Of a DNA stretch of 32,532 nt, positions 8,657 through 30,367 are shown piece by piece. This DNA is from a virus. Made by a program: the position numbers and the translations under genes. Below the pieces are notes generated by a model. That model ran no database searches and was not told the origin of the DNA. It saw only the letters and a program-made list of their open reading frames with translations. How positions within the stretch are numbered: the stretch's first letter is position 1; each line of letters begins with the position of its first letter. The DNA is taken from IMG/VR virus record IMGVR_UViG_3300020395_000052, positions 1 to 32,532 of that record. One strand, written 5' to 3'.

Positions 8657-9678
8657 TATACTTTCTCCTTTCCATACTTATACTCTTGACTAGATGCCCA
8701 ATCAAGTTTCTCCATTATCTCTTGTGTGAAATATTTCTCTGGATCCTTAAGTATTGCAGAAGGATATACACTGCTATCATTAACAACGATCCTATTTCCT
8801 TTACGCTCAAAGACTCCATACTTCTCTCCCAATTCTAATAGTCCATAATATTTGTCAAGTCCACGTGCATCAAAGTATAACCTCGTTTCTACTTGTGAAT
8901 TTTCTACTGTTAGACGAGACTTTGCTGCCTTAGCTTTGACAATATTTCCGATGACATCTTTACCGTCTTTCTCTTTTTTCTTCGAGAGGTAAATGATCGT
9001 ACTAGCAGCGTACTTAAGGCCACTACCGCCACCCATTTCTTTGGTTGGGACGTAAGCACCGACGACATCGTAGGTATGATTTGTGACGATAAGAGGGACA
9101 TTAGCTTTTCCTAATTTGAGTGTAAGAATTCTGAATATTGCTTTCACAACTTGTGCTCTAGTCATGTCACGAGTGTCTTTACCCTCGGCACTATCTGCTA
9201 GTTCTTTAGACGTTGAAAGCATTCCCAATGAGTCTAACACAAACATCATTGGTTTGCGATCTTTTGTGTCCAATGCAAGATATTTATCTAATATCTGTAT
9301 TGCTTGAGTTCTGAATTCTTGAACAGTAGTTACAGGAACTAAGATCATACGTGAACCATCAATGTTACGTTCATCTATCATCTCTTTGGTGACAGCAGCT
9401 TCAGACTCAAAGTACACAACACCTGCGTCTAAGTTCTCAGCAAGATAGTTCTGTACAATACCTAGACAAAAGAAAGTTTTACCTGTACCACTCTCTCCTG
9501 CTAGTGCAGTAATTTTATTACTTGGTACACCACCATAGATACTGCCACTACAGAGTGCGTTAAAGATATATGATCCTGTATCAACGAATGAGTTTATGTC
9601 ACCTACTCCACCTTCGTTCATAAGACCAGCATATTCATTGTCAATTTCTTTAACAATGGTTTTTAAAAATGAAGTCAT
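8656..9678 (-). CDS. uvsX: RecA-like recombinase UvsX
   Basis: 340 aa, slightly shorter than T4 UvsX (about 390). [12 protein letters not shown] near residue 48 is Walker [10 protein letters not shown] is Walker B, and IVTNHTYDV is the L2-type region after it. UvsX coats single-stranded DNA and catalyses strand exchange in recombination-dependent replication with UvsY (encoded at 30357-30770) and UvsW (28898-30367). It overlaps gp43 upstream (ATGA) and an oxygenase gene downstream (TAATG), so it is part of the polymerase operon. Confidence 0.95.
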
Positions 9679-12164
9679 GAAAATAAGAATTCTAAATTAG
9701 ATACTTTCTCTGTCTCCCATCCTATCACATTTGTGATGATTCGTAAAGGGTCTAGGAAAGCCTTTTTAAATTGGGCATCACGATCTATCTGCCCTTCCAC
9801 TCCCAGTTCACGTGGAAATGTATTAAGGAAAGAGATCACGTTTTCGTTATTAACTTTGTTTGGTCGCCTCAGGTAAATGTATTTTATTTTTTCGCCCTCT
9901 TGTACGAGTGGGTACTTGTATTCAAGTTTGTTCTTTGCGATATAAAAATTATAAAGCAAAGTTCCACGAACATGTAGAGGGGTGCCCTTTGTATACACGG
10001 TTCCTGACGCTTTAAATTTGCGTAACCCATTGACTGACCTAGGAAATGCTATATCTTCAGGCGGTAACGAATTAAATTCATCCTTAAAAGAATTTATAAA
10101 GGATTGCAAATCGGTTTCTGTGCCATCCATCATGATGTTAATAGCATCTTTAATGGCAGCACGACATGGTGCAGGTGTCGAAGATTTAACTGCTTCGATC
10201 CCCATCATTTTAAGTTTTGGTTTGTTGTATCTTACACCTTCTGAGTCCCACACATTGAGCATGTATCTTTTCTTTGCTGTCCAGATACCACTCGATGCAA
10301 TATTCTCACGTTTCATGATCATCTTCTGATCATATGCGTTTACGTAGTCGGCCAATTCTTGGTAAGAACTTTCAATATACTTTTCAAGTTCCATCTCACA
10401 GACCTTATTAAGGAACGACACAATGCTTTGATCAGTTTTCTCTCTCCCCTTGTATACAGTCTCGACCAGAGGACCCATATTGAGGTAGATACTATCAGTG
10501 TCACTAGCAATAACATAATCTTCTCCTTTTGTTTTCAGTACCTTGTTGAGGTACACATTCATTTTGTCTTCAATCCAACGGATGCTAAATTGCCCACCGT
10601 AAGTAATCGCCTCAGCATTAGATAAGTTGTAGTATCTAAAGTACTGGTTTCCAATGGCACCATAAGCCGAATTGAGCTGTATTTTTCGAGCCATTTGGAT
10701 GTTATTGAATTTACTAATATCTCTTTGTAATTTGGCACTTGGCGAAACTTCATAATCCCGTTTCGCTTGGAGCATTTTCTTTTTATATAACGTACGTTCA
10801 TCATAAATCTTCTGCATAATCTCAGGTAAGAACCCATGTATATCCTTACGATATTGTGCACCATTAGGTGCTACACAATACTCACCTTTTATCTCAACTT
10901 GCTTTTGTAAGAGCTTATCGACCGTAGCGGTTGGGTGTTTTCTGTCCAAGAGCGTTTCTGGGGAAATATTGTACTGCATAATGAGATGAGGATACAAACT
11001 ATTGAGGTCAAAATTAACCACCCAATTATAGCGTCCTGGTATCGGTTCCTTGACATATGCTCCTTCGTACTTTTCGTTCTTGTCTGATCGTTTTGCTGGT
11101 GGGACAACAACTCCTTTATTCTTCAGAAAATTATATATGATGGTGTCCCACATCCTCACCTGATAATATACATCCCTAATGTTTACCTTAGCATCGTATG
11201 CTAGAGCAATAGCAAGTTCTATCAACTTCATCTTGTCTTCTAAACGTGTCACAAGTTCCACGTCAAGAATGTTATAATCAATAAATTTCTGCCAATCTTT
11301 TGTATAGAAATCTTTGAAGTTCTCGAACTCGTTATGGTCTAATTTTCTCTGCCCTAGTTCAACAAAAGCTATATGATCTAAGCGATATGATTCCTGATTA
11401 GTATATGTGAATTTCTTGTATAAGTCAAGGTAGTCCACGACATTAATACCATACATGTTGTACAGTATTTGGGTACGACCTTTTATCTCCATCTCCTCTC
11501 TATGCACGATGCTCCATGGAGACATCTGCTTCATTTCTTTCTCACCAAATAATCTTTCAAGACGACCACAGATGTATGGTACGTCATAAAGTTCTACATT
11601 CCACCCCGTGAGAATATCTGGGAAATTAGTAATCCAATAGTCAAGAAAACAACGGAGCAAATGTTCTTCACCGTCACATAATATATAACGAACGTCATCT
11701 CTATTGTTTTCATACGGTTTGGTACCCCATACGATGATCTTACGGGTGATATGGTCTTGGACTGTAATGCTAAGAAGAGGTTCCGAGCATTCCTGCACGT
11801 TAGGAAAGCCATTTTCACATGCCACCTCGATATCAAGAGATGTAATTTTAAGACTTTTAAGGTCGTAATCAACTTCCTTCGGAAACTCTTTCGATATGAA
11901 TTGATAGAGATACCTGTCATAACCATGAACCTCAAAATTTTGTACTTCAGCGTACTTCTCTCTGAAAGCACGTGCTTCTTTAATAGATTCAAACCTTATT
12001 GGTTTGGCATACCTACCATCAAGAGTTTTATGTTTTGTTTTTTTATCTGTGACAATAAAAAGTGTCGGAGAGAACTTGAACTTACGTTGAATACGTTGTC
12101 CATTCTCGTATCCAAGATAAAGCAAGTTGTCTCCAACCATTTGGACGTTTGTATAGAAACTCAT
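9675..12164 (-). CDS. 43: Family B DNA polymerase (T4 gp43)
   Basis: 829 aa. The exonuclease domain shows SLDIEVAC (Exo I), [12 protein letters not shown] (Exo II) and YNILDVELV (Exo III). The polymerase domain shows [18 protein letters not shown] (motif A), [14 protein letters not shown] (motif B) and [10 protein letters not shown] (motif C), all with intact acidic residues. The C-terminus should carry the clamp-binding peptide (VSNLEFLFS). It replicates the phage genome together with gp45 and gp44/62. Its start overlaps the 79-aa paralog gene upstream by ATGA. No intein, intron or split is visible. Confidence 0.97.
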
Positions 12165-12400
12165 TTGGTAACGATCTCGTATTTCTTTTTGATTTCGTTT
12201 GTCGGTTCTACTATTGTAGCAAGAGTTTCAGAATATAGCAATACGTCTGTGTCAGTTGTGTAACGTGGCCAAGGTTCTAATGTGCCATCATCCTTGACTA
12301 GGTACGGATCCTGAAGGTGGCAATTCGGTTCCTCCTCCAGTTGTTCCACCTTCGATATCAGGTGTATTCCCGATCGTAGGATCACTACCATCACTTCCAT
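12161..12400 (-). CDS. 79-aa SH3/Sm-like paralog, overprinted on the preceding gene
   Basis: I place the start at ATG 12400, the third of three consecutive ATGs, because GGAGG (12407-12411) stands exactly 6 bases upstream. The protein reads MEVMVVILRSGIHLISKV, then QDPYLV, then EPWPRYTTDTDVLL and ATIVEPTNEIKKKYE. Each block matches the 130-, 176- and 126-aa paralogs: V-V-I-L-x-x-G, P-hydrophobic, P-W-x-x-x-(S/T), V-I-T-hydrophobic-x-E-P and a final x-Y. Its first 113 bases overlap the out-of-frame 3' end of the 176-aa gene, and its stop overlaps gp43 by ATGA. A small beta-barrel fold is inferred; function unknown, perhaps replication-linked RNA or protein binding. Confidence 0.75.
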   Translation of the reverse strand: MEVMVVILRSGIHLISKVEQLEEEPNCHLQDPYLVKDDGTLEPWPRYTTDTDVLLYSETLATIVEPTNEIKKKYEIVTK

Positions 12401-12818
12401 CATCATCCTCCAATAATTTTTCTGCTTCTTTAAAGATGTCTTCCATGTCCATGTCATCCTCAAAAGCACCTGCAATGGCATCTTCATGTTTCTTGAAGTT
12501 TTCATTGTAAAAGTCTTCCTTAATGGCATTCACATATTGTTCAGCAATACTATCCAAAGGAGCGTATGCTGTAATCACATGAGAACCAGGTAGAAAGAAA
12601 TCTCTATCCTTACTCAGGGGTGCCCATGGGAACCATGATACTTGATAACCTTTAGTTCTATCAAGCACAATACCACCCTCAGCGTCAGAGACAATCTCTA
12701 GACGAAAGGGTTTGTGCAACTTAAAACCAACAGGGTCTTTAGTCTCAGGATCAAAGACCTCCTGTGCTTCAGTTATAATCTCTTCACCTGATCTTAATAA
12801 TAAAAGCGTTACGCTCAT
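12288..12818 (-). CDS. 176-aa SH3/Sm-like paralog with acidic, Gly/Ser-rich tail
   Basis: Residues 1-90 form the shared domain: VTLLLLRSGEEIITEAQEV, LHKPFRLEIV, FPWAPLSKDRDFFLPGSHVI and a hydrophobic/acidic end. Residues about 110-145 are strongly acidic (DDMDMEDIFKEAEKLLEDDD), and the last 30 are Gly/Thr/Pro/Ser-rich low-complexity sequence. That low-complexity tail is read from the same DNA that encodes the start of the 79-aa paralog in another frame, so its composition may be forced by overprinting. It overlaps the 130-aa paralog by ATGA upstream. Such small genes beside gp43 are common in marine T4-like phages but have no assigned role that I know of. Confidence 0.8.
   Translation of the reverse strand: MSVTLLLLRSGEEIITEAQEVFDPETKDPVGFKLHKPFRLEIVSDAEGGIVLDRTKGYQVSWFPWAPLSKDRDFFLPGSHVITAYAPLDSIAEQYVNAIKEDFYNENFKKHEDAIAGAFEDDMDMEDIFKEAEKLLEDDDGSDGSDPTIGNTPDIEGGTTGGGTELPPSGSVPSQG
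12407..12411 (-). promoter_or_regulatory. Internal Shine-Dalgarno GGAGG deciding the start of the 79-aa gene
   Basis: GGAGG lies inside the 176-aa coding sequence, 6 bases before ATG 12400 and directly before two further ATG triplets. Its position fits independent initiation of the overprinted gene at the third ATG. Confidence 0.6.
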
Positions 12819-13207
12819 TCTACTTGTCCACCCATCTTGCGTACATTAGTAATGTATGTATCACGCAAACTTGGGACTGGTTCTAGGATAGTTATAACCA
12901 TATTATGATTGATTGCTATTCTAGTTTCTGGTGTGAGAGGACACCATGGAGAGTAGTGTACTTTAACTTCTGGATCTTCTACTATACCAGTAGTTCCATC
13001 TGTCTTAGGTTTGTCGTACTCTACTAAGTAAGGGAAATTAAAGATATATGCTTGACGTTGGTTATTAGTCTTATCAACTGCTTCTTGTAAGTCTGTAATA
13101 ATTTGATCACCATTGTGAAGTATAACAACTTTAATCCTATCAGGATTAACGAGTGTATTATCAATACCTTTGGGAGTTACATTAATTGGTTCTTTCTTTT
13201 TTGCCAT
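12815..13207 (-). CDS. 130-aa SH3/Sm-like paralog, first gene of the polymerase operon
   Basis: After a basic N-terminus (MAKKKEPINV) come IKVVILHNGDQIITDLQE, FNFPYLVEYD, HYSPWCPLTPETRIAI and NMVITILEPVPSLRDTYI, the same block order as in its three relatives in this window. The pattern of short hydrophobic strands with a G-D/E-x-I turn suggests a five-stranded SH3/Sm-like barrel; this is inference from pattern only. It begins about 20 bases after the predicted transcription start of a perfect sigma70 promoter, so it should be among the first proteins made from this operon. The next paralog overlaps it by ATGA. Confidence 0.8.
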   Translation of the reverse strand: MAKKKEPINVTPKGIDNTLVNPDRIKVVILHNGDQIITDLQEAVDKTNNQRQAYIFNFPYLVEYDKPKTDGTTGIVEDPEVKVHYSPWCPLTPETRIAINHNMVITILEPVPSLRDTYITNVRKMGGQVE

Positions 13208-25152: not shown

Positions 25153-26195
25153 ACTACCTCCAGTGCTTCCACGTATAAGGTTTTTAAAATAGATTTAAGT
25201 GCAGTCTTATCTTTGTATTCTATTTCATCAACATATCTTTCAAGGATGGTTAGTGTGTCCTCTTTTTCAATATCAATTTCTTCACTCAAGTCTTGTTCAA
25301 AGGATGGATCCTCAATGACTTTGATCTCATGTACACCAGCAGCATAGAGTTGTGATATAAAGAACTCAAATTTGTCTGTGTCCTTTTTCTTTTCTACTAT
25401 GATCTTAATGAAATGATTTGTATAATCTGTGTACTTAAACTTACTACTATTTAACTGATCCTCATGGTAGTATATTTTTTCATAGATGGCATAAGGGTTC
25501 GGTATAAACTCCAATTCCAAAGTTTCAGTATCAAATATATGGAAACCACGCTTACAATTATAGTCATTCCAATAGATTTGGTAGGGATTACCTAGGTATG
25601 TTATGTTCTCCCTCATACTTTTTTGATGATAGTGACCTGAGAATACCTTATCAAATTTCCTATATGGTGCTGTACTATCACCATGATCCATAATATAACC
25701 ACGGTGTGCTTCAAACCCATTGAGTTCTAGGTGTCCCATTGCTACTGGAGATTTACTTTTCTTTATTAAATCATATGTCTCATCATGATTTTCTTCATTG
25801 ATCCAAGGTATGAATAGAATAGGTAGTCCACCTATCTTTACCTCAGTTGCTTTAGTGTATATTGTTACGTTGTCATACTCTCCAACTGTAGTCACGAGAG
25901 TGTTTACTAAATTAGTATTCTTAAAATATGCTGTGTGATTTCCTACTAAGGCATGAACTTCAACTCCCATATCCTTAAGTACATCAAAATAATTATGGGT
26001 TGCCCACTGTGCTGCCCATATATCTAAGTTTCTACGGTTATCAAATGTATCTCCTAGATCTAGAACTGTTGTGATGCCACGTTCTTTAAGTGTTGGAAAG
26101 AACACATTTCTATAGAACTTCTTAAAGAAGTCGTGAAATATTCTACTTGATTTCCTTGCACCAAAATGCTGATCAGTTATGATTACTATCTTCAC
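25149..26195 (-). CDS. 47: Recombination nuclease subunit, SbcD/Mre11-like (T4 gp47)
   Basis: 348 aa, near T4 gp47 (339). Metallophosphoesterase motifs appear in order: ITDQHFG (D-x-H), DLGDTFDNRR (GDxxDxR), LVGNHTAYF (GNH), MGHLELNG and VFSGHYHQKS (GHxH). It is the nuclease partner of gp46. It is chained by four-base overlaps to the aminotransferase upstream and the DUF3110-like gene downstream. Confidence 0.96.
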   Translation of the reverse strand: MKIVIITDQHFGARKSSRIFHDFFKKFYRNVFFPTLKERGITTVLDLGDTFDNRRNLDIWAAQWATHNYFDVLKDMGVEVHALVGNHTAYFKNTNLVNTLVTTVGEYDNVTIYTKATEVKIGGLPILFIPWINEENHDETYDLIKKSKSPVAMGHLELNGFEAHRGYIMDHGDSTAPYRKFDKVFSGHYHQKSMRENITYLGNPYQIYWNDYNCKRGFHIFDTETLELEFIPNPYAIYEKIYYHEDQLNSSKFKYTDYTNHFIKIIVEKKKDTDKFEFFISQLYAAGVHEIKVIEDPSFEQDLSEEIDIEKEDTLTILERYVDEIEYKDKTALKSILKTLYVEALEVV

Positions 26196-27283
26196 TTTAA
26201 CTGACCCTCAAGTACATGAAAGTATTCATCATTCGCATCAATGGGAATGGTAAACATTCCTTTAAACTCACGTTCAATTTCAATTATCGTTCCGAACTGT
26301 CCTTTGATAGTATAACCTAAATTCTGAAACAAGTCAACCGCCCTTACTACGATGTCCCTGTGCTTCTTCATAAGGAGTTCATCTTCTAGTATTTTAATAT
26401 ATGCAAGACAACTTAAGATGCCTGGCAAACTGAAGCTGTAAGTAAATCCATGCTCCCAGTCAAACCTTCTGGGTAGTGCTTCATGTATCTTGTCATTATA
26501 TAATGCAATACTTAATGGAAAGTATCCTCCTGTGATTGCTTTTCCCATTGTAAAGATGTCAGGATTAACTGGGATCTTCTTCCATCCCACAAAGTTTCCT
26601 GTCTTCCCTCCTCCTGTGAAGATGTCGTCTACTATTATAATAACACCTTTCTTCTGTATCTGTGAGATATTAGTCCAGAACCTTTCACTATGAGGTTTGA
26701 TACCATTGACATAAGGACAACTCTCTACCACAACACACATGACATTATCCCAGTTGTAATGATCCACATAGAAGTCAACTGGCAATCTTAGTATATTCTG
26801 ATATGGTTTCATTGTATAAAATGGATCATTAAACAGACCATCACCCATGCTCTGAGTTAACATAGTAGATCCATGGAAGCTACCTTTGAATGTAACTATG
26901 CCATTACGTTGATGCTGACCTACTTCTTTCTGATATGCACTAGCAAGTTTGACTGCACCTTCAACTGCGTCACTACCACTCAATGAGAATATACTTCTAT
27001 ATCCTGTAATACCCTTGAGCATCTTTGCTAGTTTCCATGTACAGTTGTTTAACTTGAGAGGTTGAGCTTCAAAGAAGTTCTCACCTATCTCAGGTTTGAT
27101 ACACATATTGTCACGTACATAGTTCATGATCTGCATACGACCATACCCTAATGTATAGCAACCAAAATTTAACATAGGATCTACGTACTTCCTACCATCT
27201 AAGTCCATTCTTCCATAGTCCCAACCATACTCTTGCTGCCCGACGTTTTTTTGGGTACCTGGTATTAATCCTGGATATTTCAT
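26192..27283 (-). CDS. Class III PLP-dependent aminotransferase (BioA/GSA-like)
   Basis: 363 aa, shorter than typical class III enzymes (about 420-450). GRMDLDGRKYVDPMLNFG is the N-terminal substrate-side signature, LSGSDAVEGAVKLASAYQ the PLP-phosphate loop helix, VTFKGSFHGSTMLTQS the Y/F-H-G-x-T motif, IIVDDIFTGGGKTG carries the PLP-nitrogen Asp, and FTMGKAITGGYFPLS the Schiff-base Lys. All catalytic residues look intact; the C-terminal domain is reduced. Family members move amino groups in biotin, heme, arginine or polyamine pathways. The substrate is unresolved. It is linked by ATGA-type overlaps to an oxygenase upstream and gp47 downstream, so it is co-translated with core phage genes. 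Confidence 0.88.
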   Translation of the reverse strand: MKYPGLIPGTQKNVGQQEYGWDYGRMDLDGRKYVDPMLNFGCYTLGYGRMQIMNYVRDNMCIKPEIGENFFEAQPLKLNNCTWKLAKMLKGITGYRSIFSLSGSDAVEGAVKLASAYQKEVGQHQRNGIVTFKGSFHGSTMLTQSMGDGLFNDPFYTMKPYQNILRLPVDFYVDHYNWDNVMCVVVESCPYVNGIKPHSERFWTNISQIQKKGVIIIVDDIFTGGGKTGNFVGWKKIPVNPDIFTMGKAITGGYFPLSIALYNDKIHEALPRRFDWEHGFTYSFSLPGILSCLAYIKILEDELLMKKHRDIVVRAVDLFQNLGYTIKGQFGTIIEIEREFKGMFTIPIDANDEYFHVLEGQLK

Positions 27284-28515: not shown

Positions 28516-28896
28516 TTAGCTATTAAATATTTTATCTAATTTAATACGAGCTTCATCTACGGTAGATATTCTTCCACTACTATTTTTAACAGTATCTGCA
28601 TGAAGTCTTCTTAAAGACATAGCATAGAATATCTGTACCTCTGTATCAACTTCTACGACGGTTATAACCTTGTCCTTCGGGATGAGAAATTCCTCCTCGC
28701 GTGAAAATTTCATCCAAGGTGTTACCTTTGCACCTGCTTTATTACCCTGTAGCATGACCTCTTCGATCTCTATAGGGTTTTGTACTATCATATAGTCACC
28801 GTTCTCATCATTAACATGTTCAGTCACCGCAAGAATTTCTTCTCCCGATACTAATTTGATTGCTGCAAGGAATTCGATTTTCTTTTGCTCTTCCAT
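28516..28896 (-). CDS. 126-aa SH3/Sm-like paralog
   Basis: I choose ATG 28896 (MEEQKKIEFLAAIKL), one base after the uvsW stop; in-frame ATGs further up (for example 28917) overlap uvsW. It reads KLVSGEEILAVTEHV, QNPIEIEEV, VTPWMKFSREEEFLIPKDKV and ITVVEVDTEVQIFYAMS, matching the block order of the three paralogs before gp43, although it lies 15 kb away. The C-terminal 30 residues are charged and helical. Function unknown; it may be a regulator or adaptor of the replication/transcription machinery. Confidence 0.75.
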   Translation of the reverse strand: MEEQKKIEFLAAIKLVSGEEILAVTEHVNDENGDYMIVQNPIEIEEVMLQGNKAGAKVTPWMKFSREEEFLIPKDKVITVVEVDTEVQIFYAMSLRRLHADTVKNSSGRISTVDEARIKLDKIFNS

Positions 28897-28897
28897 G

Positions 28898-30367
28898 TTA
28901 GTCTCTGATTCGGACATCAATGAACTCATAGTCGAAATTTTCTTCATTATATATTTTAACACGTTCTGTCAAATGGTTTAAAGTATAGTTTCTTTTAGTA
29001 GCAGTGGATATATCATCTGCTATATCATATAGCACTGCCTTTGTTTTGTGGTCGCCTTTCCTTAAGACCCTGCCGATCGACTGGAGGTTCCTGATTTTCG
29101 ACTTTGAAGGCGATGCAAAGACAACATTATGTAAGTTCCTAATATTAATACCAGTGCTAAAAGTCCCATAGGATGCCACTATAATTGAATTATTTGTCGT
29201 CTCGGCAATCTCTCTTGCCCTTTCCCTGTCCTCAGTATCGACCCCACCGTGGACTAAGAAGACCAGTCTGTCTTCTCCTACCTTATTATTTATCATATCA
29301 AAAAGGGGCATGCCATGCCGTTCAACGTAGTTGAACAGGACGAGAGTGTTACCAGATAGGTCACAAACTAGGTTACGTATGAATTTATTGCGTCCTTGAT
29401 GGTCAACAAGATAGTCCATCTCCTCCTGATAAGTTTCAAAAGTTCTCTTGTCATGTTTAAGGATAAGTACTTTAATCTCAAACTCAGAAAGGTGTCCTTG
29501 TTTAATTAGTTTTTCAGTACGAGTTATCTTATCAACAGTTCCAAATACACCTTCAAGAACAAGGCGGTTTGTTTCTGTACCATCTAAAGTACCAGTAAAC
29601 CCTATGCGATACTTACAGTCATAGAGTTTATTCATAATACTAGTCAAGGATTTTGCCTTGAAGAGGTGTGCTTCATCTCCTATTATAGCACCAAAATTCT
29701 TAAAGTATGTCTTAGGTAGTTTATATACTGACTGCCATGTGCTAATGATCACGTCCTTGTCAGAACCAGGATTAGTACCTGCATATACTTTGTGGCAATG
29801 CTGTTTGGCATCCCATCCATAATTCTCAAAGTCCTTGTACATCTGTTCGACAAGTGATGTCGTAGGAACTACTATGAGTGTTTGTAATTTCTTTGCTGCC
29901 CAGAATCTAGACAGAGCATATATCATTAGAGACTTACCAGACCCTGTGGGTGACAGTAATAGTTTACGCTTGTTGCGTAGTGCTTCGTAGATACCTTTGT
30001 ACTGATAGTCTCTAACCTTGAACGGTAAGTTAAGTGTCTTAACCCATTCCCCTAGTCCTTGGGGAGTAATGAATCCATCCACTTCTTGTGGAAGTCCATA
30101 AAATTCGTTGTCCCTATGGATAACTTCGTACCCCTTCTCTTCGCAAAACGCAGTAATATAAGGGAGAAGACCAACATAAATTTCGCCTGTACCTGGGGAG
30201 AATAACTTGATTTTTCCATCCCAATACCTCTTCTTGTACGCTGACATGAATTTGGCTTGAGGCACTTCAAAAGTAAACTCATCTGCTAGTTCGTAACCTA
30301 CGTGAGGTTCGCATTCAACAGTAAGATATACTTCGTTCTTCTTCTGAATGTATACATTAGATTTCAT
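28898..30367 (-). CDS. uvsW: DNA/RNA helicase UvsW (SF2)
   Basis: 489 aa, close to T4 UvsW (503). LLLSPTGSGKSLMIYALSRF is motif I, LIVVPTTSLVEQM motif Ia, AIIGDEAHLF motif II (DEAH), RIGFTGTLDGTE motif III, IIVASYGTFSTGINI motif V and NLQSIGRVLRKG motif VI. UvsW unwinds R-loops and branched DNA and switches replication from origin- to recombination-dependent mode. It overlaps uvsY by 11 bases. Confidence 0.96.
   Translation of the reverse strand: MKSNVYIQKKNEVYLTVECEPHVGYELADEFTFEVPQAKFMSAYKKRYWDGKIKLFSPGTGEIYVGLLPYITAFCEEKGYEVIHRDNEFYGLPQEVDGFITPQGLGEWVKTLNLPFKVRDYQYKGIYEALRNKRKLLLSPTGSGKSLMIYALSRFWAAKKLQTLIVVPTTSLVEQMYKDFENYGWDAKQHCHKVYAGTNPGSDKDVIISTWQSVYKLPKTYFKNFGAIIGDEAHLFKAKSLTSIMNKLYDCKYRIGFTGTLDGTETNRLVLEGVFGTVDKITRTEKLIKQGHLSEFEIKVLILKHDKRTFETYQEEMDYLVDHQGRNKFIRNLVCDLSGNTLVLFNYVERHGMPLFDMINNKVGEDRLVFLVHGGVDTEDRERAREIAETTNNSIIVASYGTFSTGINIRNLHNVVFASPSKSKIRNLQSIGRVLRKGDHKTKAVLYDIADDISTATKRNYTLNHLTERVKIYNEENFDYEFIDVRIRD

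Follow-up and report, generated by a model that had tools for sequence, protein, structure and literature searches.

A short overlap between Sm-like genes upstream of gp43, and its probable lengthening by stop-codon loss in one clade of cyanophages

We analysed the whole of a 32,532-base virus record (IMG/VR IMGVR_UViG_3300020395_000052), which we refer to as the window. Here, the end of a 176-aa gene lies, out of frame, on the start of a related 79-aa gene that precedes the DNA polymerase gene gp43. The initial annotation held that the 79-aa gene had been overprinted on the tail of its relative. We find the reverse. Matches in 343 phage records, a tree, and outgroup comparisons indicate that the 79-aa gene is the older of the two elements, and that the tail of the 176-aa protein is the newcomer. 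The best explanation overall, to which we give a probability of about 77%, is that the upstream gene lost its stop codon, and that the residues gained were then tuned as a flexible tail on an Sm-like subunit. The initial annotation was correct that the paralogs and the two-frame overlap are real; the direction of events was reversed and the composition of the tail misread.

The proposed sequence of events is as follows. Two putative Sm/LSm-type paralogs, T4-GC 176 and T4-GC 417, lie adjacent to each other and upstream of gp43, in a series of genes whose ends touch. The upstream gene would long have ended, in phase 2, within the beginning of the downstream gene. In the clade containing the window, the upstream stop at downstream codons 8-9 would then have been lost, with run-on to a later TGA adding about 29 residues. 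Subsequently, the tail would have been kept open as third bases of the downstream gene changed, replacing Arg, Tyr, His, and stops with Gly, Thr, Ser, Pro, and acidic residues. The outcome would be an Sm-like subunit carrying a flexible and probably disordered tail. The 79-aa protein would initiate at its own internal GGAGG, and its end would be coupled to gp43 by ATGA.

Genes and proteins of the locus

In the phage collection, the isolates closest to the window are the MED4 cyanomyoviruses P-HM1, P-HM2, and MED4-213, with approximately 75% DNA identity over the gp43 region. Four genes, all on the minus strand, succeed one another with touching or overlapping ends. These are a 130-aa paralog (12815-13207; phrog_431, T4-GC 176), the 176-aa gene (12288-12818; T4-GC 176, matching phrog_431 at 4.5e-31 over residues 1-130), the 79-aa gene (12161-12400), and gp43 (9675-12164; phrog_262, E 0). 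The end of the 130-aa gene overlaps the start of the 176-aa gene by ATGA. Alignment shows that residues 1-130 of the 176-aa protein are conserved, and that residues from about 140 to 176 are an added tail, inside the overlap with the 79-aa gene. This overlap (12288-12400) is in phase 2. It is 113 nt long, upstream stop included, and covers codons 1-38 of the 79-aa gene.

The 79-aa frame runs from ATG 12400 to TGA 12161. Note that additional in-frame ATG codons occur at 12403 and 12406; ATG 12400 is the start position common to the 77 intact relatives described below. A GGAGG motif (12407-12411), 6 bases 5' of ATG 12400 and within the 176-aa gene, is the likely ribosome-binding site. In all 31 non-redundant loci with a 113-nt overlap, GGAGG or AGGAG is found no more than 16 bases from the equivalent ATG. 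Hence, internal initiation is likely. Furthermore, re-initiation by ribosomes leaving the upstream frame seems unlikely across a distance of 113 nt. At the other end of the gene, stop and gp43 start are joined by ATGA (12161-12164). Of 90 non-redundant loci, 89 have the same junction and only the outgroup S-MbCM6 lacks it; the junction suggests coupling to gp43. The coordinates, the overlap, and both of these signals had been described in the initial annotation, and all hold.

The 79-aa protein matches DUF6561 (PF20198) with 73.7 bits (cut-off 27; E 1.2e-20), over model positions 1-83 of 84, and phrog_483 at 1.6e-26. Cyanophage genes of this group (DUF6561/phrog_483/T4-GC 417) resemble the window gene in family, in having a similar length, and in their position before gp43. 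The family gene is annotated as T4-GC 417 in P-HM1, P-HM2, and S-MbCM6, and its product as a hypothetical protein in these phages and MED4-213. A profile of 16 family members finds PDB entry 3BY7, nearly full length (positions 2-77, E 4.5e-7). The AlphaFold2 model of the 79-aa protein (mean pLDDT 92.1) superposes on 3BY7 with a Z score of 14.0 and an rmsd of 1.2 Å over 77 residues; Foldseek gives values of 1e-4 to 6e-4 for the same pair. Matches to Lsm and Sm chains have Z scores of 7-8 over about 60 residues. We conclude that the 79-aa protein has a predicted Sm/LSm fold, shared with 3BY7 and TIP60. Sequence identity to 3BY7 is about 22%. 3BY7 itself is a protein from an uncultured source, structurally similar to Sm/LSm-like RNA-binding proteins, and is matched by TIP60 nanocages; our literature search found no paper on 3BY7 itself. 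An excerpt of PMC12389965 describes the Sm-like part of TIP60 as a five-fold assembly. By analogy with 3BY7 and TIP60, the phage Sm-like proteins may form rings, and they could bind nucleic acid.

As initially annotated, the 79-aa frame belongs with three other small SH3/Sm-like proteins in the window. The 176-aa and 130-aa proteins are both phrog_431, and align with each other at 4e-12. Their scores against DUF6561 are 24.4 and 22.8 bits, below the cut-off of 27. The 79-aa protein also matches phrog_431, at 5.2e-5, and its pairwise E values are 2e-6 to the 130-aa protein and 4e-4 to the 176-aa protein. Comparing profiles of the 79-aa and 176-aa families gives a probability of 97.7% (E 2.4e-12). 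The third protein, of 148 aa (28516-28962, minus strand), matches the Sm_like family PF16243 at 1e-9 and belongs to phrog_471. Judged by these sequence matches, the 79-aa protein has three paralogs in the window, of 176, 130, and 148 aa. The 176-aa protein may also have an Sm/LSm-like fold. Its own AlphaFold2 model, from a single run, has a pLDDT of 42.7. A predicted P-HM1 protein of 141 aa (E3SMY1) is matched by the 79-aa model with a TM score of 0.86 by query length, and the length of E3SMY1 equals that of the P-HM1 T4-GC 176 gene.

The 148-aa gene adjoins a helicase gene that we take to be UvsW. Its start is uncertain. Initiation at GTG 28962 gives a 65-nt overlap with the end of the upstream helicase gene (28898). 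The alternative, ATG 28896, is the beginning of the conserved part, and the true start may be there. Sm-like cyanophage proteins carry the label 'methylamine utilization' (phrog_471 in PHROGs and BFVD A0A0E3FQP9), which looks like a carried-over misannotation. Among the replication genes, a 363-aa frame (26192-27283, minus strand) has the look of a class-III aminotransferase.

Loci found through the 79-aa protein cannot show loss of the 79-aa frame. Hence, we used loci seeded with the 176-aa protein, taking the best 80 of 89 relatives. The initial annotation held that relatives keeping the 176-aa tail with no intact 79-aa frame would count against it. None was found among the 77 loci where the 79-aa frame is intact, and the remaining 3 of the 80 are cut by contig ends. 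Intact frames have 79 codons in 66 cases and 80 codons in 11, with the ATG at the same place. We conclude that the 79-aa gene is genuine and old.

The overlap series and its origin

In the loci of our first two scans, the overlap is 113, 107, 65, 56, or 26 nt long; the third scan's 80 loci stand outside every count given here. Close tail-less relatives have the 26-nt overlap. In a further group, a gene named T4-GC 530 in P-HM1 lies between the paralogs and overlaps the 79-aa gene by 13 or 16 nt. P-HM1, P-HM2, and MED4-213 have another gene directly upstream, with a 16-nt overlap; the P-HM records name it T4-GC 530. In P-HM1, this intervening gene (locus L001:2886-3347, minus strand) is of a different kind from the two paralogs.

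We built a tree from 84 loci, using the 176-aa domain, codons 41-79 of the 79-aa gene, and the start of gp43, with midpoint rooting. Six of the 90 non-redundant loci were excluded, comprising five with less than 240 nt of gp43 and the outgroup S-MbCM6. All rows with overlaps longer than 26 nt form one clade of 36, with support of 98/92. By overlap, the clade has 27 members at 113 nt, one at 107 nt, four at 65 nt, and four at 56 nt. The main form of the T4-GC 530 arrangement requires about four changes on the same tree. Two groups are on very long branches, of 0.73 (L082, L109, L114, and L115, of the 56-nt group) and 0.68 (L072, L079, and L154). In L082 and L101, of the first of these groups, the start of gp43 is only about 42-54% identical to other groups, in contrast to a much closer neighbouring segment. 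This pattern suggests that the 5' part of gp43 was exchanged.

We also compared ten distant cyanophages, picked for diversity. Each has a phase-2 overlap between T4-GC 417 and the upstream paralog, of 17-71 nt compared with 113 nt in the window, and every length is 2 modulo 3. These lengths use annotated starts, except in S-B68, where the start is from tblastn. In nine of the ten, the tail frame holds further stops before offset 110; S-B68 has only its own. In that phage, the 79-aa family member (L239:1601-1954, plus strand) is unannotated, is open for 117 codons from ATG 1601, and has a 56-nt overlap; the record instead annotates a 61-aa CDS (1926-2111) in front of the polymerase. Since all ten outgroups have short overlaps, and overlaps longer than 26 nt form one clade, the short phase-2 overlap is apparently the ancestral state, and the long tail the derived one. 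Note that this polarity rests on the outgroups, the tree being midpoint-rooted. The 79-aa gene and a shorter overlap in the same phase are already present in annotated cyanophages, and the long tail is apparently a lengthening.

The groups differ in sequence at the presumed old stop. In the 26-nt group, the 176-aa-type gene stops at codons 8-9 of the 79-aa gene, using an out-of-frame TAA. Among 20 distinct genes of this group, these codons are CTT AAG in 18 and CTT AAA in two. In 30 tail genes, codon 8 is CTG, CTC, CTA, TTG, or TTA, followed by AAG or an Arg codon, and no stop forms.

Upkeep of the tail frame and codon use within it

For counts of boundaries and codon use, the tail set comprised the 30 distinct genes with 113-nt or 107-nt overlaps. 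The tail-less sets were 20 genes of the 26-nt group and 24 of the T4-GC 530 group; rows with 65-nt or 56-nt overlaps stood outside the tests of stops and rates. We defined a stop-capable boundary as a codon boundary, at offsets 23-103, where synonymous choice could make a stop in the tail frame. None of 193 such boundaries is closed in tail genes, compared with 50 of 107 in the 26-nt group and 56 of 125 in the T4-GC 530 group (106 of 232 together). The tail frame is open across offsets 23-103 in 30/30 tail-bearing genes and 0/44 tail-less genes. In random synonymous redraws that preserved the 79 amino acids and followed phage codon use, the frame was open in about 3% of cases.

Changes along the tree tell a similar story. 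By whole-codon count, stop gains in the tail frame on tail branches number one inside the overlap and 13 downstream, compared with 19 inside and 15 downstream on tail-less branches (Fisher p 0.0029). The sole gain inside the overlap on tail branches is that of the 107-nt gene (L112), two codons before the usual end. Five overlap changes on tail branches are double changes in one codon, ending at TCA or GAA rather than a stop. Four of these are switches between GAA and TCA at offset 47, where changing one base alone would pass via TAA. In the 79-aa gene of tail-bearing relatives, codon 16 changes at its end jointly with codon 17 at its start on four branches, avoiding a TAA in the tail frame. 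Selection to keep the tail frame open is well supported by these patterns, and both frames appear to have been kept open in the overlap beyond chance.

Codon use in the 79-aa gene also differs inside the overlap. In codons 10-36, GC3 is 0.66 for tail genes compared with 0.17 and 0.16 for the tail-less groups. In codons 40-79, the equivalent values are 0.28, and 0.28 and 0.24; in gp43 they are 0.37, and 0.31 and 0.27. Codon 23, for Glu, is GAG in 30/30 tail genes, compared with 0/20 and 2/24 tail-less genes. With GAG at this codon the tail reads Gly instead of Arg; a stop is impossible here with either Glu codon. Because the long tail arose once on the tree, the codon shift is for the most part a single inherited event.

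For codons 10-36, the synonymous rate in tail relative to tail-less genes, normalised to the rest, is 0.55 (CI 0.25-1.11; 0.25-1.09 in a second estimate), which is marginal. The value for codons 18-33, normalised to codons 40-79, is 0.39 (CI 0.15-0.92), in a stretch picked after seeing the data, and for codons 10-17 it is 0.72 (CI 0.19-2.04). The initial annotation held that a lack of excess constraint in the 79-aa frame would count against it. This outcome was not seen, as GC3 and stop gains do differ in the overlap; the rate over codons 10-36 is marginal evidence.

Richness of the tail in Gly, Ser, Pro, and Thr had been thought the expected result of reading through an older domain in another frame. 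If so, tail-less genes should have the same composition in that frame. They do not. The mean share of these four residues is 62% in 113-nt genes, compared with 35% in the 26-nt group and 26% in the T4-GC 530 group, where the frame instead encodes Arg, Tyr, and stops. This rules out that the tail simply owes its composition to read-through of the older domain. The Gly/Ser/Pro/Thr make-up would thus have arisen with, or later than, loss of the stop. Selection on the tail residues is likely rather than established, going by these sequence comparisons, and the tail would be an appendage of the protein. From its composition, we judge that it is probably flexible and disordered. In BLAST with the low-complexity filter on, none of 50,697 phage records matched the tail peptide at an E threshold of 1.

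Full tail length is dispensable in the 65-nt and 56-nt rows (four of each on the tree). In the 56-nt rows, a single stop interrupts a frame that otherwise stays open as far as the 113-nt end, as expected of later truncation. The 65-nt rows adjoin the window on the tree and contain extra stops. Decay after tail loss was considered for these, and was set back by mosaic identities in one of them, L090. Compared with its best 113-nt relative, identity is 0.985 upstream of the 79-aa gene, 0.99 at offsets 150-240, and 0.95 in gp43, and falls to 0.91 at offsets 0-66 and 0.89 at offsets 66-150. At offsets 66-150, L090 is about as close to tail-less rows (0.87-0.88). Hence, an imported segment, introduced by recombination, is possible in the 65-nt rows.

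Alternative explanations and significance

Could the overlap be retained for translational control, with the tail peptide a by-product? Ribosomes ending the 176-aa frame would either occlude the 79-aa start or be delivered to it, thereby determining how much 79-aa protein and gp43 is made. The GGAGG internal to the 176-aa gene, ATGA junctions on both sides, and the phase-2 overlap in all ten outgroups are consistent with such a role. However, a need for an open frame alone leaves unexplained the use of GAG, rather than GAA, at Glu codons 22 and 23, where it makes tail Gly rather than Arg and has no effect on stops. We regard this explanation as rather unlikely. Another option is that the tail is a neutral run-on, its odd codon use coming from a recombined GC-rich segment. 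In support, the 65-nt rows look mosaic within the 79-aa gene, so recombination may happen there, and in only 6 of 11 phages (the ten distant phages and the window) do the overlapped codons have the higher third-base GC. However, the codon shift is confined to the overlap among segments compared, and stop gains on tail branches avoid the overlap. In addition, third-base T is lower in overlapped than in other codons in all 11 phages, though with 3 to 35 overlapped codons each and shared ancestry. On balance, neutral run-on is unlikely.

Less probable again is a clade-specific RNA element in the overlap that constrains synonymous sites, the open frame being incidental. Folding of the window overlap is somewhat stronger than that of shuffled sequences (z -2.36), and a stretch around codons 18-33 is near-invariant. 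Against this, none of 24 predicted pairs has compensatory changes (a weak covariation test, most pairs being invariant), and Rfam has no match at gathering score in the window. Nor would such an element explain the 0/193 closed boundaries. Finally, beyond the overlap itself, nothing suggests that the 79-aa frame is spurious, or a recent ORF that was overprinted on the tail of the 176-aa gene. We dismiss this almost entirely given Pfam and PDB-level homology, matches in 343 phage records (tblastn, E up to 0.01; 200 cover at least 80% of the protein), and intact frames in 77 of 80 loci, the other three being cut. Stop-codon loss followed by tuning of the tail is thus our preferred reading, with both frames presumably translated. 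A more specific form of it is conceivable, and we propose it tentatively. Here, an overprinted segment between paralogs would have been selected at the amino-acid level, and an Arg/Tyr/stop frame rewritten to give a Gly/Ser/Pro/Thr/Asp appendage of a hetero-oligomeric Sm-like ring beside the polymerase.

Excerpts of PMC3887535 and PMC2268670 describe unidirectional overlapping genes as arising by stop-codon loss. Like the cases described there, the upstream gene in the window enters a downstream gene on the same strand after apparent stop loss. Unlike them, as far as those excerpts go, the overlap joins two paralogs and differs in length within a single gene pair among close relatives, and downstream codon use differs strongly inside it. 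In titles and the openings of abstracts, we found no literature on the T4-GC 176/T4-GC 417 gene pair, and the terms 'T4-GC 176', 'GC 417', and 'Sm-like' do not occur in the main text of PMC3037559, as far as it was available.

The locus provides a graded natural series of one overlap (26, 56, 65, 107, and 113 nt), with tail-less controls at the same site. This makes it possible to trace, base by base, how an overprinted protein segment is born, tuned, and lost. It also indicates that an overprinted tail can be of low complexity for other than passive reasons; here, the low complexity accompanies shifted codon use in the older gene. In addition, an uncharacterised cyanophage module before gp43 is now tied to the Sm/LSm fold.
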